Origin: Sulfurovum sp. TSL6
GTDB taxonomy: Bacteria > Campylobacterota > Campylobacteria > Campylobacterales > Sulfurovaceae
Assembly (NCBI RefSeq): GCF_019972115.1
Contig: NZ_BPFJ01000002.1
Coordinates: 248,001 to 312,000, forward strand
Length of the DNA stretch: 64,000 bases
Reading direction: 5' to 3'
Position numbers and translations under genes: made by a program. This document shows positions 45,761 through 53,113 of the stretch, piece by piece. The notes under the pieces are model-generated. The model was not told where the DNA came from and ran no database searches. It saw only the letters and a list, made by a program, of their open reading frames with translations. Position 1 is the stretch's first letter. The number at the start of each line of letters is the position of its first letter.

Positions 45761-47809
45761 ATGGAATTTATAGATTATGTTGTAGCATATTGGTTAGTGA
45801 TAAAATATTTAGTACTTTTCGCAGCCATTATTATTTTACTAAGTAGTATAGATGATTTTTTTATAGATTGTTATTATTGGGTCCGTCGTATATGGCGAAG
45901 GTTTACTGTATACAAAAAACATAAACCATTTAATGTGAATGAGCTTTATAAAGATAGAGAAAAGCCTATTGCTATTATGGTTCCGGCATGGCAGGAGAAA
46001 GGGGTTATTGCAGATATGGCTGCCTTGGCTGCTTCAAGCTTTGAGTATTACAACTATCATATATTTATCGGTACCTATCCCAATGATCCTGAAACGCAGC
46101 ATGATGTGGATATGGTCGTTGAGCATTATCGGAATGTACATAAGGTTGTTACCCGTACCCCTGGGCCCACAAATAAATCAGATTGTCTCAATCACATCAT
46201 TGAAGATATTTTCTTATTTGAAAAAGAACATAATATAGAGTTTGAAGGGTTTGTACTGCATGATGCGGAAGACTTAATACACCCTTTGGAGTTAAAGTTG
46301 TTCAATCATCTCATTGGTAAAAATGATCTCATCCAGATCCCTGTTTTTCCGTTTGAAAGAGAATGGTATGATTTTACTACAGGACATTATGAAGACGAAT
46401 TTGCAGAAAATCATGGGAAAGACCTTATTGTAAGAGAAAGTATCTTGGGATTTGTTCCAAGTGCAGGTGTAGGAACAGCCCTGAGTAGAAAAGCCATTGA
46501 TAAACTCAAAGAAATACACAACGGAGAAGTCTTCCTAATTGATACCCTTACAGAGGATTATAACTTAGGGTACGAGCTGTTTCATGAGAATATGAAGCTC
46601 ATCTTTGTAAGAGTACCTGCTGAACTAGAGTATACGACCAGAAATAGCTATGGTAAGGAAAAAAATAAGAAAAAACAGGTCCTTATTAGCGTTAGAGAAT
46701 TTTTTCCTTCAACATTCCGTCAAGCGGTCAGACAAAAAGCAAGATGGATCACAGGTATTGCACTTCAAGGATGGCAACAACTTGGATGGTCTGACAATTT
46801 TAAAACCAACTATATCCTTTATAGAGATAGAAAAGCCATTCTCACCAACCTTGCCAATGTTCTGGCCTATATCCTTGTTATCAATATTCTTGGGATGGCA
46901 CTGTATACAAAAATCACCCAGGATATATGGTGGTTCCCACCTATCATTAAAAAAGGGGATTTACTTTGGTACCTTCTTATCATTAACGCTTTTTTCTTTC
47001 TTAACCGTATCATCCAAAGAATGTATTTTACCTATGAAGTCTATGGTATCAAAGGCGCATTACTGAGTATCCCAAGAATTATTTGGGGGAACTTTATCAA
47101 CTTTTTTGCCATGTTCAAAGCATTAGCACAGTTCTTTAAACTGAAAAAAGCAGGGCAGCAGATCCCATGGGATAAAACCACACATGATTTCCCGCTTCGC
47201 AGAAAATTCCATAAAAAACTGGGAGATATTCTATTAGAAGAAAAACTCATTGACCAGGCTACCCTTGAACAGGCCTTGGCAAAACAAAGAAGTAAGCAGA
47301 AGGCCTTAGGTAAACTACTGTTAGAAGAAAACATTATAAGCGAAACAGATCTGGCAAAAGCGATGTCCATACAAAGCAATCTGAAATATATCCATGATAT
47401 CACTCCAAACCAAGTAGATAATGAGACTATGAATAGAGTCGATCACTATTCCTTGCTTGAAAATGACATTATTATCCTCAAGACTGTCGATCATGTACAA
47501 CCTATCGTTTCATCAGGGCAAGTAGTCGATGTAGTCGTAGATGAATGTAAAAGAAAGCTATCTGATCGTACCGAACTTTACATCACCAACGAAAGTACCA
47601 TCGTAACCATTCAAAAAGAGGTGCTTTTCCATGATCTGAGTGAAACAGAGTTTAGTCAGCTTCGTAGCGTTCTCAAGAAAAAAATGATCCCAAGAGGAAT
47701 GGTAGATGAAATCTTAGAGTATAGAACACAAAACAACCAAGACTTTATTGCCAGTTGCCAACATTTCGGCTTTTTACCTGATGACCAACTTACAAGGATC
47801 GACGCATGA
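45761..47809 (+). CDS. NfrB-like processive glycosyltransferase with C-terminal MshEN-like c-di-GMP module
   Basis: The 682-residue inner-membrane GT2 synthase has an N-terminal helix, the catalytic GT-A domain with HDAEDLIHPLE (DxD type, about residue 168) and the RQKARW motif of processive enzymes (about residue 324), then three to four helices. Residues of about 484-540 carry two copies of KLGDILLEEKLID-type sequence, an MshEN pattern that binds c-di-GMP in E. coli NfrB. A GspE-N-like region follows. It should polymerise a sugar nucleotide and push the chain to NfrA. It overlaps the next gene by ATGA. Confidence 0.85.
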   Translation: MEFIDYVVAYWLVIKYLVLFAAIIILLSSIDDFFIDCYYWVRRIWRRFTVYKKHKPFNVNELYKDREKPIAIMVPAWQEKGVIADMAALAASSFEYYNYHIFIGTYPNDPETQHDVDMVVEHYRNVHKVVTRTPGPTNKSDCLNHIIEDIFLFEKEHNIEFEGFVLHDAEDLIHPLELKLFNHLIGKNDLIQIPVFPFEREWYDFTTGHYEDEFAENHGKDLIVRESILGFVPSAGVGTALSRKAIDKLKEIHNGEVFLIDTLTEDYNLGYELFHENMKLIFVRVPAELEYTTRNSYGKEKNKKKQVLISVREFFPSTFRQAVRQKARWITGIALQGWQQLGWSDNFKTNYILYRDRKAILTNLANVLAYILVINILGMALYTKITQDIWWFPPIIKKGDLLWYLLIINAFFFLNRIIQRMYFTYEVYGIKGALLSIPRIIWGNFINFFAMFKALAQFFKLKKAGQQIPWDKTTHDFPLRRKFHKKLGDILLEEKLIDQATLEQALAKQRSKQKALGKLLLEENIISETDLAKAMSIQSNLKYIHDITPNQVDNETMNRVDHYSLLENDIIILKTVDHVQPIVSSGQVVDVVVDECKRKLSDRTELYITNESTIVTIQKEVLFHDLSETEFSQLRSVLKKKMIPRGMVDEILEYRTQNNQDFIASCQHFGFLPDDQLTRIDA

Positions 47810-50235
47810 AACGAATACTAGTATTTATACCTCTATATTGTATGACATTCTTGAATGCCGATATGGTGAATAACCCTGTAGATCATCTAAAAGAGGAATT
47901 CACTGAATATCGAGTCTACCCTAGATTGCAAAAAGCTGATAACTACATTGCTGAGGGCAAGATCAAAGAAGCAAAAGAACTTCTTTTGAAAGTGCTAGAG
48001 ATTGATCCAAAGAATGCTAGAGCGGGCAATAGAGTCGTTGTACTCTGTATGCAGGATAAAGATTTTGAATGTGCCAGGAAATATGTTGAGCTTGTAGAGC
48101 CATCTACCTATCAAAAATACTACGAAGGCTATAGCGCTTTTGAGCTGCAAGACTATGCGCAAGCCCTCAAAGCAGCATCTTCTATAGAAGACGCTACAAC
48201 GCTTAAAAAAAGTGAACAGGAACTTAACAATAATATCATTCTAAGATCAGCCATTCTGTCTGAAAATAAAGAAGCAACCGATGCCTCTTTGGAAAAAATA
48301 CTCCATCCAAAATATAGTACGTCATCTTGTCCGTCTGAATCTTTAGAAATTATCTCTTTACTCTTTGAGCATAAACTCTTCGATGAAGCGTTCAGAGAAA
48401 CCCGTTTCTACGTAGACCATTGCAAGTCTCAAAAGATCCCGGATGAGAAACTTGCTGTCTGGTCGGATCTTTTGAGAAAAGAGAATCTGTTTGATCAAGA
48501 AAAAAACATCATTGCCCATATGGAAGAGTTTGATTTGAGAAATGAACATACTTTATCCATGTATCTCAAAAGCGGCGATGCATCAAAAGCCATCGAAACA
48601 ATGGAAAAAATATATCATGCGAATCCTTCTGATAAGAACAGGGTACGTCTAGTGTATCTTTATGAAAATGCAAAGATGCAAGATAAAATAATTGCGCTTT
48701 ATTCAGATACATACGAAGTTGGAAAAAACCCAGAAGATCTAAAAATACTGCTTTATCTCAAAAAGGATCCTGAACAGCAGTATCAGATACTGGAGAAATA
48801 CTATCCTTATGCAGGTCTAACAGAGGAAGAAAAATTCAACTTTTCAATTTCTCTGATAGCGTTTTATAAAAAAGAGAGCAAGGTCGCTAAAATACTCTCT
48901 ATAGTGGATGATCTTACCCAGCTTGAAAACTTGACGGACAAACAAAAACTCTATTTGAGCCATCAGTACAGTGAAAATCATCAAGACCAAAAAGCTATAG
49001 CGCTCATGGAAGCACTCTATCAAAGTGATCCGCTCCCTCAGTATAAAGAAAGACTGGTGTATCTGCGTAACAGAAACACTATTCCGAAGAAACCACAACC
49101 TAAAACAGTGCGAAAAAAACCACAAACCAAACCAAGACCTACACGTGAAGATATTCTAAGAGCAGAAACACAGAAGGCTTATGATCTTATCCATGAAAAG
49201 CGCTATGATAAAGCAAGTGTACACATCAAAAATACACTGAAGTATGACCCAAAAAATGCAGTAAGATATGAACAGCTCGGACATGTTTACTACGCTCAGG
49301 AAAAGTATGCACAGGCAGCAGATGCATTTAAGAAAGCATCAGCACTTCATCCAACATCAGGCTATTATGAATCATTGGCTTACTCTCAGATACAATTAAA
49401 AGAGAAAACAAAGGCTATAGAGAGTTTGAAAAAAAGTATTGATATCGTTAAAAAAGAAGAACCTGAAAACATCGACAAACTCTATCAGTTAAAATACAGT
49501 GTAGCAGAACTGGACCGTGACTTCTTTGGATATTTAACCTATGGGGTGAGACTTGACTCCTATGATAATCCTGGCGGAATATCACCCATACTTTCTGCTA
49601 ACTATGGTGGGTTCTCGGCTTTAGAACTTCATTATAAACCAAAAGTTTTTGATGACTATGCGACCGTCTATGTGAAAGCGCTGGCTGGAGTACGGGACCA
49701 AAGTTTGGCCATCCGATCAGAAACATGGCAACCATCCATTGGACTACGCTTTCAGCCACTCAAAGATGAAAGACTCTACTTCTTTGTAGAAAAATTCTTT
49801 AAAGGCGGTGATGAAAGTCGTGACGATACCATGCTCAGAGCATCATGGGAACTCTTTGATGGATATGACTTTTACCCTACAAAAACAGAGTATGAATGGA
49901 AACACCTTTATATGGACAGTGTATACTATCTGGATAATGGTACCTACAGTCTCTATGCAAACTATGAACATGGATATGTATGGAAAACTGGATATCAAGA
50001 TGCCTGGATGCCTTATCTTTGTACTTCTGCAGGATATAGCAATGATAATGGTTCAAAAGAGACAATCAAAAGGTTTGATGTAGGTGCAGGGATCTCTTAC
50101 CTGTTCTGGCGTAATGAACGCGAATATAAGTCCCATCAATATATCGGACGAGCAAGACTGGAATATCGTCATCAATATGCCGGAGATCCGGAAGATGATC
50201 ATGCACTAAGACTGATGCTTGAATTTTTCTTTTAA
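47806..50235 (+). CDS. NfrA-like outer-membrane polysaccharide secretin with TPR domain
   Basis: The 809-residue precursor has a signal peptide (about residues 1-18). The periplasmic part is a long superhelix of TPR repeats, clearest at about residues 40-75 (AEGKIKEAKELLLKVLEIDPKNA) and 460-545 (KRYDKASVHIKNTLKYDPKNA). A Lys/Pro-rich linker (about residues 425-450) sits between. The last 230 residues form the NfrA C-terminal barrel, ending in LEFFF. It is the export partner of the upstream synthase, comparable in plan to PgaA. Confidence 0.82.
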   Translation: MKRILVFIPLYCMTFLNADMVNNPVDHLKEEFTEYRVYPRLQKADNYIAEGKIKEAKELLLKVLEIDPKNARAGNRVVVLCMQDKDFECARKYVELVEPSTYQKYYEGYSAFELQDYAQALKAASSIEDATTLKKSEQELNNNIILRSAILSENKEATDASLEKILHPKYSTSSCPSESLEIISLLFEHKLFDEAFRETRFYVDHCKSQKIPDEKLAVWSDLLRKENLFDQEKNIIAHMEEFDLRNEHTLSMYLKSGDASKAIETMEKIYHANPSDKNRVRLVYLYENAKMQDKIIALYSDTYEVGKNPEDLKILLYLKKDPEQQYQILEKYYPYAGLTEEEKFNFSISLIAFYKKESKVAKILSIVDDLTQLENLTDKQKLYLSHQYSENHQDQKAIALMEALYQSDPLPQYKERLVYLRNRNTIPKKPQPKTVRKKPQTKPRPTREDILRAETQKAYDLIHEKRYDKASVHIKNTLKYDPKNAVRYEQLGHVYYAQEKYAQAADAFKKASALHPTSGYYESLAYSQIQLKEKTKAIESLKKSIDIVKKEEPENIDKLYQLKYSVAELDRDFFGYLTYGVRLDSYDNPGGISPILSANYGGFSALELHYKPKVFDDYATVYVKALAGVRDQSLAIRSETWQPSIGLRFQPLKDERLYFFVEKFFKGGDESRDDTMLRASWELFDGYDFYPTKTEYEWKHLYMDSVYYLDNGTYSLYANYEHGYVWKTGYQDAWMPYLCTSAGYSNDNGSKETIKRFDVGAGISYLFWRNEREYKSHQYIGRARLEYRHQYAGDPEDDHALRLMLEFFF

Positions 50236-50286
50236 ACGGAGTAAACTGTATCTATTAAGTATTTGAAAAAGAAGGAGGTTATCACA

Positions 50287-52041
50287 ATGAAAAGATTAAT
50301 TAAATTTGGTGCACTTGCTATATTTTTATTACTTCTCACCTCTTGTGGAGGGGGAGGTAGTGGCAGTTCTTTAGCAGAAACACCGATTCAAGATCCTCCG
50401 ACAGGTACAGATATTAATATTACTCTTCCTGTACCAAGTCACAATCCTCCCTTGCAAAATGTCCTGATTGTGTATGATACCGCAGGTCCTTATGGAGAAC
50501 AGGGAAATATCAATGCACTCTTACTTGAAAACCTCTTAGGCCACTTTGATCTCAACATTACCTCCAAACCTGCTGAGCAATATATTGCCAATGAAATAGT
50601 TGATGAAAATATTACGACTGTTTTCTATCTTGGTACAACATACTTAAACGATTTGACTAACTTTAAAAGTTCTGATGGATACACTACAAATTACTTAGAT
50701 TTTTTTAAAGACATTGCTACTAACAACAAAACAACTGTATGGATAAACTATAACCTTGACCTGCTGGAATATGAATGGAAAACAAATGCTTGGGGAGGAA
50801 CAACATTTGAAGAGTCAACTGGCTTTACTAGCGCCGGTACAGATACAAATTATACTCGTGTATGGTATAAGGATACAGAACTCTATAAAGGTGTAATACC
50901 ATTCAAAACACCTGATGCAGATACATCAAACTGTGAACCTGAACCAACAATAAACAATGCCTATGCCTGTGCATTAGAACTTAACACTATTTTAATTTCT
51001 GATGAAAATAAAACATCTGTCCTTGCTGAAGCAAACTCAACAATCGATTTATCTATATCAAATGAACCCTATGTCACACATGGAGGAAATTTCTGGTTTG
51101 TTGGGGATATTCCTTTTTCCTATATGTCAGAGGAGGACAGGTATCTCGCATTTGCAGATCTTCTGCATGATATGCTTAATATAGACCATAATGAATCGCA
51201 CAAGGCGACCATGAGACTCGAGGATGTAAATGCGGAGACTGATCCTTCCGATTTAATTGCAATAACAGAGTATATGCAGAGCCAAAACATTCCTTTCAAT
51301 GTTGCTACCATCCCTCAGTATAAGGATCCATACGGTGTTTACCATAACGAAATCAATACAACGATCAAACTTTATGAGTCAGATATCGGTACACTACTGC
51401 AAGCCTACTATAATGAAAGACTGATTGATATCGTACAGCATGGATTTAGTCATCAGCTATATGATTACATTAATCCATATAATGGGGTTACGGCTGAGGA
51501 TTTTGAATTTATAAGAGTCACAGATGATGGAAATAGTATTTATACTTATGAAGGACTATCTGAAGATCATAATGGAACTTGGGCAAAAAATAGAATACTG
51601 GAAGGGAAAGCGATTTTAGAGGAAGTTGGCATACAGGCATTTGCATGGGAAGCACCGCACTATATGGCAGGACCGGAGCACTACCGGTCTATCCAAGAGG
51701 TCTATCAAATACAGTACTCCAGACTTATCTACTATCCAGATGAGACTGATAAATCTAAATTTGTCGGGCAGTTTTACCCGTATATCATTAGAAAAGACAC
51801 CTATGGATATTATGTGATTCCTGAAAATATACACAACATTGAGGATGCGCCAAATGATGGCTATAGAACCATCACATCAGATGATATTATACGTTTTTCC
51901 AAAAAGCTAAAAGTGGTACGTGATAGTGTTGCAAGTTTCTATTACCATCCTTATCTGGGAACAGATGAACTTTCAAAGATCATACCCGGATTACAAAATG
52001 AAGGCTATACATTTGTTAGAGCTACCTCATTGGTAGAGTAG
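50287..52041 (+). CDS. DUF2334-family lipoprotein (polysaccharide-deacetylase-like)
   Basis: The 584-residue precursor has a lipobox LLTSC and a Gly/Ser linker. The C-terminal half (about residue 305 on) contains RLEDVNAETDP, QHGFSHQ (about residues 383-389) and AFAWEAPHY, metal-ligand motifs of DUF2334, a relative of carbohydrate esterase family 4 deacetylases. AAGGAGG before the ATG at 50287 decides the start over 50263. It lies in the NfrB-NfrA locus, where it may trim acetyl groups from the exported glycan, like PgaB. The N-terminal 250 residues have no recognised domain. Confidence 0.8.
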   Translation: MKRLIKFGALAIFLLLLTSCGGGGSGSSLAETPIQDPPTGTDINITLPVPSHNPPLQNVLIVYDTAGPYGEQGNINALLLENLLGHFDLNITSKPAEQYIANEIVDENITTVFYLGTTYLNDLTNFKSSDGYTTNYLDFFKDIATNNKTTVWINYNLDLLEYEWKTNAWGGTTFEESTGFTSAGTDTNYTRVWYKDTELYKGVIPFKTPDADTSNCEPEPTINNAYACALELNTILISDENKTSVLAEANSTIDLSISNEPYVTHGGNFWFVGDIPFSYMSEEDRYLAFADLLHDMLNIDHNESHKATMRLEDVNAETDPSDLIAITEYMQSQNIPFNVATIPQYKDPYGVYHNEINTTIKLYESDIGTLLQAYYNERLIDIVQHGFSHQLYDYINPYNGVTAEDFEFIRVTDDGNSIYTYEGLSEDHNGTWAKNRILEGKAILEEVGIQAFAWEAPHYMAGPEHYRSIQEVYQIQYSRLIYYPDETDKSKFVGQFYPYIIRKDTYGYYVIPENIHNIEDAPNDGYRTITSDDIIRFSKKLKVVRDSVASFYYHPYLGTDELSKIIPGLQNEGYTFVRATSLVE

Positions 52042-52060: not shown

Positions 52061-53113
52061 ATGTTTCATCTATTGAAGCTACCAGTGATAGTTTTCTATC
52101 TATTTATTACAACTCAGATAGGATACTGCAATGATCATGCAAAATATTCAAAGGCGAAATGGATCGAGGAAGCACTCTTTTCACTTGCAAATAAACGATA
52201 TCCCAATATCAAAGCTGTTGCATGGTGGAATGAAAACTTTGATGAAACAAGGTTGAGGATCGACTCATCCAAAAAGAGTTTAAGGGCCTATCAAAAAGGT
52301 ATCGCTTCCTCCGTATTTATATCTCAAGCACATATTGTTTCCAAAAAACTTCAAGCACCGCCACATAGATCTATCTATCATGCTGCAAATCCCGATTTTG
52401 GAGGGACAGAAGATAATGTAACATCAAAAAGTATCAAAAATTTTGAATCCCTTGCAAAAAAAAAGATAGTTTGGGCATACTTCTCCAACAACTGGTATGA
52501 TGCGATCAAGTTTCCTCTAGCTGAAGTCAATACCATTCATAAGAGCGGAAAGTTACCTTTTATCAGACTCATGCCTAGAAGTGATTTCAACGTAGGAGGT
52601 CCAGATTCACGCTATACCATGCAAAAAATCATCGATGGAGAGTTTGACAAAGAACTTATACAATGGGCACTTGATGCTAAAGAGAGTGCTATTCCACTGT
52701 TAGTTGAATTTGGAACAGAAGTCAACGGAGATTGGTTTCCATGGAACGGAAGCTATAATGGTGGGGGAACAACTGATCTTTATGGCGATAGAAAAAAAGC
52801 CGATGGCCCGGAACGTTTCCGTGATGCTTACAGATATATCATCACACTTTTTCGTCATCATAAAGTAGATAATATCACCTGGTTTTTTCACGTGAATGCA
52901 TCATCCTATCCTGAAAAATCATGGAATGAAATACATCAATATTATCCGGGTGATACCTATATTGATTGGCTTGGGGTAAGTGTATATGGTCCGCAAACCA
53001 AAGAAGATACCTATAATTCATTTACTGACATACTGGATAAAGCATATCATGAGCTCACCAATATTTCAAATAAGCCAATTGCTATTTTAGAATTGGGCAT
53101 TACTGAAATATAA
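52061..53113 (+). CDS. Secreted GH26-like glycoside hydrolase, apparently circularly permuted
   Basis: The 350-residue precursor has a signal peptide (about residues 1-23). Residues 31-80 (KAKWIEEALFSLANKRYPNI, KAVAWWNENF, LRIDSS) resemble the C-terminal end of a GH26 TIM barrel. Residues 103-350 follow the rest of the domain from its usual start (YHAANPDFGGTEDNV) through the acid/base Glu of FGTEVNGDW (about residue 220) to the nucleophile Glu of ILELGITE (about residue 344), where the gene stops. The last strand is thus at the N-terminus. It is last in the exopolysaccharide locus, 19 bases after the DUF2334 gene, and probably cuts that polymer. Confidence 0.75.
   Translation: MFHLLKLPVIVFYLFITTQIGYCNDHAKYSKAKWIEEALFSLANKRYPNIKAVAWWNENFDETRLRIDSSKKSLRAYQKGIASSVFISQAHIVSKKLQAPPHRSIYHAANPDFGGTEDNVTSKSIKNFESLAKKKIVWAYFSNNWYDAIKFPLAEVNTIHKSGKLPFIRLMPRSDFNVGGPDSRYTMQKIIDGEFDKELIQWALDAKESAIPLLVEFGTEVNGDWFPWNGSYNGGGTTDLYGDRKKADGPERFRDAYRYIITLFRHHKVDNITWFFHVNASSYPEKSWNEIHQYYPGDTYIDWLGVSVYGPQTKEDTYNSFTDILDKAYHELTNISNKPIAILELGITEI

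Follow-up and report, generated by a model that had tools for sequence, protein, structure and literature searches.

A probable natural circular permutant of the GH26 barrel encoded behind nfrBA-like genes in Sulfurovum sp. TSL6

Few catalytic (β/α)8 barrels are known to be circularly permuted in nature, and the classic example is that of the GH70 glucansucrases relative to GH13. The GH70 permutation, explained by permutation per duplication, resembles the one described here in that a catalytic (β/α)8 barrel is naturally permuted while non-permuted members are found nearby (PMC4919382). GH70 enzymes differ from the protein studied here, hereafter GH26p, in belonging to clan GH-H, in being multi-domain and in their cut point (α3 start/β3 end); the GH70-type criterion, namely that both halves are homologous to one canonical domain and that the natural termini are joined, is met by GH26p. 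Within GH26, CtLic26A of Clostridium thermocellum (endoglucanase H, PDB 2bv9/2bvd) shares with GH26p the barrel fold, both catalytic glutamates and the W-x-E motif of β8, and the aligned structures are about 27% identical in sequence, but its strand order is canonical, whereas GH26p carries β8 and its helices in front. Canonical members of the same GH26 subfamily (L004, L005, L063, L069, L071, L068 and others) share the invariant active-site residues of GH26p and have the normal order, and in Bacteroidota and Chlorobiota they belong to amino-sugar-type utilisation loci.

The polymer of Nfr systems is the receptor for phage N4. It has been suggested that NfrBA synthesises and exports a polymer based on ManNAc (PMC8669472, PMC8669469), and YbcH, the product of the third gene of the E. 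coli nfrBA-ybcH operon, was termed a putative scaffold (PMC8669469). This operon (NGR polymer) is like the one that contains GH26p in the order and overlap of nfrB and nfrA and in the c-di-GMP domain of the synthase (PMC8669469, PMC8669472), but its third gene encodes a DUF4434 protein, whereas the source operon has a DUF2334 gene and a permuted GH26 gene. No earlier description of a permuted GH26 was found in the literature searched (titles and abstracts, with coverage that was not exhaustive). What is new is a GH26 lineage that is permuted yet retains its catalytic residues and has close non-permuted sisters, the GH26 family itself being already known. Overall, we consider GH26p to be a natural GH26 circular permutant with a complete active-site barrel, a single duplication-type origin and a role as an Nfr-polymer hydrolase, a reading to which we assign a probability of roughly 0.77.

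In the window, that is, the whole stretch of 64,000 nucleotides that was analysed, GH26p stands at the end of an nfrB-nfrA-DUF2334-GH26p operon, in which nfrB and nfrA are adjacent and overlapping (Table 1). The open reading frame of 350 residues has no frameshift or internal stop and ends with KPIAILELGITEI before the stop codon, six residues after E344, which makes this an unusually bold cut point. The next gene, pnp, lies on the opposite strand and its end is 22 bases past GH26p. As judged by eye, the signal is of the Sec type in the source genus and of the lipoprotein type in most other permuted relatives. The Pfam family PF02156 (Glyco_hydro_26) is matched with 48 bits (cut-off 20.2) over residues 189–325 only, and it is matched by 60/60 permuted members tested; no NCBIfam model matched GH26p. 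With Pfam coverage so limited and NCBIfam blank, such permutations are easily missed by annotation pipelines.

Table 1. Coordinates of the GH26p operon and of the parts of GH26p, numbered from the first letter of the window
Feature	Position	Strand	Details and basis
nfrB-like c-di-GMP-activated glycosyltransferase (polysaccharide synthase)	45761..47809	+	NF008411 E 2.1e-218 (below curated cut-off); NF053729 above cut-off
nfrA-like outer-membrane TPR/β-barrel export protein	47806..50235	+	Pfam NfrA_C E 4.2e-20
DUF2334 protein, lipoprotein-like signal	50263..52041	+	Pfam DUF2334 E 7.1e-39
GH26p, permuted GH26 gene	52061..53113	+	350 aa; ORF; swapped CtLic26A match; PF02156 above gathering score
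Signal peptide, residues 1–23	52061..52129	+	Low-confidence N-terminal helix in model; orthologue N termini; type judged by eye
Moved C-terminal barrel piece, residues 30–82 (α7, β8 50–56, α8)	52148..52306	+	CtLic26A 231–281; canonical profile 289–359; modelled strand
Seam, residues 83–103 (canonical C-terminal tail and canonical N-terminal start)	52307..52369	+	FISxAxF tail and KLxxP start
Strands β1–β7, residues 104–350	52370..53110	+	VIA Z 22.9, 216 residues on 2bvd 8–228; model strands
Acid/base glutamate E220, end of β4	52718..52720	+	Aligned with CtLic26A E109; invariant in 60 permuted members
Nucleophile glutamate E344, on β7	53090..53092	+	Aligned with CtLic26A E222; invariant in 60 permuted members

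An initial sequence-only reading had held that GH26p is GH26-like and circularly permuted, with residues 31–80 corresponding to the C-terminal strand and tail of the domain, residues 103–350 to its start through the nucleophile, and a seam at about 81–102 joining the original ends, the two halves forming one complete domain. These assignments are supported throughout by the alignments. In a phmmer search against the PDB, residues 122–349 align with CtLic26A 21–227 (i-Evalue 6.6e-13) and residues 30–82 with CtLic26A 231–281 (i-Evalue 0.0044). CtLic26A in turn matches a profile of the permuted family (60 members) in two swapped pieces (E 7.6e-17 and 5.2e-9) and a profile of canonical relatives (11 members) in a single collinear piece. 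In mature GH26p, positions 289–359 of the canonical profile come first (57 bits) and are followed by positions 29–288 (429 bits); the two pieces are complementary, and thus no part of the GH26 domain is doubled or missing. Rotating GH26p at residue 94 produced a single match to the canonical profile (497.5 bits, profile 33–359), while the best of 100 shuffled GH26p sequences reached 5.1 bits. Judged from sequence, GH26p is one complete GH26 domain in swapped order, its sole loss being a short β7–α7 loop.

The seam of the permuted proteins consists of a tail, F-I-(S/T)-x-x-x-F, followed by K-L-x-x-P-x-x-x-I-Y, both being natural canonical termini, and the junction falls at identical profile positions in all permuted loci. 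The reading would have been refuted by a single normal-order profile match, by a failure of residues 31–80 to align with the GH26 C terminus, or by a frameshift or assembly error restoring the ordinary layout. None of these held, with the nuance that PF02156 alone matches GH26p once and in normal order, because this model, confined to residues 189–325, stops short of the moved strand. The canonical β1-to-β8 chain order is absent from GH26p, in which β8 precedes β1; this order is an unstated feature of the known GH26 members and no formal criterion of the family, hence GH26p is filed here as a permuted variant.

The AlphaFold2 model of GH26p (mean pLDDT 93.3, pTM 0.89), a prediction and not a solved structure, has eight strands alternating with helices in the order β8-β1-β2-β3-β4-β5-β6-β7, with β8 at residues 50–56 and β1–β7 at 105–110, 138–144, 165–171, 213–217, 272–279, 303–309 and 340–346. 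In this model E220 comes directly after the β4 strand and E344 lies within β7, the places expected of the two catalytic glutamates, in agreement with the earlier proposal that both are kept. W56, E58 and E349 are likewise invariant across the 60 permuted relatives. VIA-align is sequential, and sequential aligners are unable to follow a permutation; it placed only residues 104–350 of the GH26p model on 2bvd 8–228 (Z 22.9, 216 residues), whereas the control, the canonical relative L071, was placed over its whole length (51–362 on 2bvd 8–283; Z 32.4, 271 residues). In the canonical model both chain ends form short strands (43–45 and 369–371). As far as the model can be relied upon, GH26p very likely folds to a complete (β/α)8 barrel in which the two catalytic glutamates are correctly positioned. 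GH26 enzymes are retaining hydrolases of β-mannan, β-glucan or β-xylan. We infer that GH26p is a retaining endo-β-glycosidase, there being no activity data for any member, and the presence of Thr before the acid/base glutamate, a position occupied by His in CtLic26A, would fit an altered specificity.

The permuted order was found in 71 fetched loci and the canonical order in 15 proteins; with those added later, the permuted relatives amount to about 75 loci from independent assemblies. Their records carry the labels of seven phyla (Bacteroidota, Chlorobiota, Campylobacterota, Pseudomonadota, Spirochaetota, Planctomycetota and Caldifarciminota), some being metagenome bins whose phylum labels are possibly wrong. 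Near-identical permuted genes are labelled WOR-3, Phycisphaerae and Bacteroidales (L037, L047 and L056 versus L033 and L038), and some of these bins may be mislabelled. The genome of L037 also has a second, very divergent permuted copy (L107:1486–2526), in which the catalytic motifs are retained. In the source phylum, matches occur in 5 of 397 genomes (3 permuted, 2 canonical), and this rare and patchy presence suggests horizontal transfer. Orthologues in three genomes of the source genus are 72–77% identical to GH26p over the main piece, and dN/dS values of about 0.11–0.15 against them demonstrate, or come very close to demonstrating, that GH26p is under purifying selection.

Close relatives with the normal order, whose existence the initial reading had left to be looked for, were found, and they are 50–60% identical to the permuted proteins over the main piece (β1–β7). 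A first tree, built from rotated sequences, groups the permuted proteins in a single clade (SH-aLRT 96). With more outgroups, and with the divergent L107 left out, this clade is placed among canonical GH26s with bootstrap/SH-aLRT support of 98/96, and the nearest canonical clade, from Bacteroidota and Chlorobiota, contains tandem canonical pairs (L063, L078). When included, L107 falls outside the permuted clade on a very long branch, a single clade not being rejected (AU p 0.14). The shared junction position is a further argument for one permutation event. Most likely, we infer, there was one permutation, which took place in the ancestor of a clade whose members are now spread over several phyla. 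Having the permuted clade and its sisters at such identity means that nearly matched pairs are available for studying how a permutation originates and what it costs.

The operon order nfrB-nfrA-DUF2334-GH26p is kept in three other genomes of the source genus (G919, G899, G910) and in one of the source family (G234). In G234 a CotH kinase gene (L137:7001–8764) comes after the cluster. The NF053729 match of the nfrB-like product corresponds to an MshE-related c-di-GMP domain, and the DUF2334 protein is, by inference, a putative polysaccharide deacetylase. In another genome of the source genus (G388), as well as in G833, G812 and G880, a DUF4434 gene comes after nfrA in place of GH26p. Across 10 genomes the two genes are mutually exclusive, five having the permuted GH26 without DUF4434 and five having DUF4434 without the permuted GH26. 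The ten genomes are related, so the exclusion is suggestive and carries no statistic; in one of the five DUF4434 genomes (G817) a position of the DUF4434 gene within an nfr cluster was not established, as it was in the other four. No DUF4434 was found in the source genome, where GH26p and DUF2334 come after nfrA. E. coli YbcH is a DUF4434 protein (PF14488, 1.5e-69; NF007404, 520 bits versus a cut-off of 344). DUF4434 also adjoins nfrA in L143, L146, L147 and L148, and E. coli ybcH is at L154:3092–3982. The literature searched contained no paper found to name DUF4434 or to link DUF2334 with polysaccharide. A WecB homologue is encoded in the source genome; WecB-type enzymes are common. Outside Campylobacterota, the permuted proteins are mostly stand-alone lipoproteins lacking nfr genes, and no general link of the permuted family to nfr genes or to any other neighbour emerged there.

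The loci of the canonical sisters have a different composition. Five of them (L063, L069, L071, L076, L078) share a SIS protein (GlmS/NagB-II-like), a ROK kinase and a GH2 enzyme whose closest match is exo-β-D-glucosaminidase, and L069 also encodes an N-acylglucosamine 2-epimerase that scores above the curated cut-off. DUF4434 is present in L063 (8197–9291), L069 (8882–10015) and L078. The GH26 subfamily and DUF4434 thus look to meet twice, beside a polymer synthase and in an apparent amino-sugar utilisation locus, and on the basis of this double meeting an amino-sugar polymer, perhaps containing ManNAc, is proposed as the substrate of GH26p. Support for this substrate is only moderate, because neutral mannan pathways likewise employ members of the ROK, GH2 and AGE families. 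The substrate may differ in the permuted relatives outside Campylobacterota, since most of these genes have neither nfr genes nor a common neighbourhood.

A swapped order could be mimicked by a frameshift, a chimera or an assembly error, and the source is a draft genome in seven contigs, yet nothing was found in support of such an artefact. The identical order with a constant junction in about 75 independently assembled loci, and the operon shared by the nearest relatives, leave it with a negligible chance; assembly error and frameshift were ruled out since independent genomes show the permuted order. As to how a real permutation came about, the initial reading had invoked tandem duplication followed by loss of both outer halves, and this stands in part. 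A tandem GH26 duplication, then an in-frame fusion and then the loss of the outer halves would yield the permuted gene, and this origin is likely, by inference, because the seam joins natural ends and because the sister clade has tandem canonical pairs. In L063 the tandem genes share one frame with a single stop codon between them; this pair is raw material for a fusion and not the intermediate itself. The proposal lacks direct witnesses, for no fused double GH26 domain was present among the loci seen (only the adjacent tandem genes of L063 and L078) and no remnants of lost halves were detected beside permuted genes in 414 translated flank pieces. These absences favour gene fission and re-fusion in reverse order, or circularised DNA, which we nevertheless regard as unlikely, given that the natural C-terminal tail sits directly on the natural N-terminal start, as expected of a fused tandem, and given the in-frame tandem copies in the sister clade.

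For the function, we propose that GH26p would be exported by the Sec route and would then act in the periplasm as a retaining hydrolase via E344 and E220, on the chain in transit between NfrB and NfrA, trimming or clearing the ManNAc-based polymer and standing in for the DUF4434/YbcH protein of Nfr systems. Hydrolases accompany other exopolysaccharide synthases too. This inferred role, as periplasmic hydrolase of the NfrB-made and NfrA-exported polymer in replacement of DUF4434/YbcH, is evenly poised between right and wrong, the Nfr polymer being chemically uncharacterised and the nfr link resting on few, related genomes. GH26p could instead be an ordinary secreted or surface β-glycanase for foraging on β-mannan or mixed-linkage β-glucan, set beside nfrBA by a coincidence of insertion. 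The nearest solved relative is indeed a lichenase, and outside the source order the permuted relatives are mostly stand-alone lipoproteins without nfr genes; we still find foraging unlikely, though not to be dismissed, as the gene lies directly behind nfrB-nfrA-DUF2334 in four species of the genus and in G234, excludes the YbcH family in the 10 genomes and has sister enzymes that reside in amino-sugar loci. That the protein is a GH26 relative without catalytic activity, serving in binding or as a scaffold, appears improbable. It would echo the description of YbcH in the corresponding operon as a putative scaffold (PMC8669469), and a chain end so near the nucleophile could impair catalysis, but across 60 members E220 and E344 never vary, nor do many aromatic residues and asparagines of the active site, and the strand bearing E344 is modelled with high confidence.

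The exchange of GH26p with DUF4434 suggests that the unexplained third Nfr component, YbcH, is a polysaccharide hydrolase, and DUF4434 could be the hydrolase still missing from the Nfr system. More tentatively, and with the odds somewhat against it, a single ancient permutation might have made a GH26 lineage specialised for mannosamine- or glucosamine-containing exopolysaccharides, possibly the first described in clan GH-A, which together with DUF4434/YbcH would define an unknown hydrolase step of Nfr systems. The canonical subfamily has further architectures and hosts. In Caldisericales bins it carries a GH114 domain as a fusion partner (L086:171–2144 and L087:5902–7584, with Pfam evidence for L086), in Chlorobi the partner is a GH114-associated domain (L063:4594–6216), and canonical-order members are present in the ammonia-oxidising archaea Nitrosocosmicus (L068:5824–7002, L073:1611–2780).
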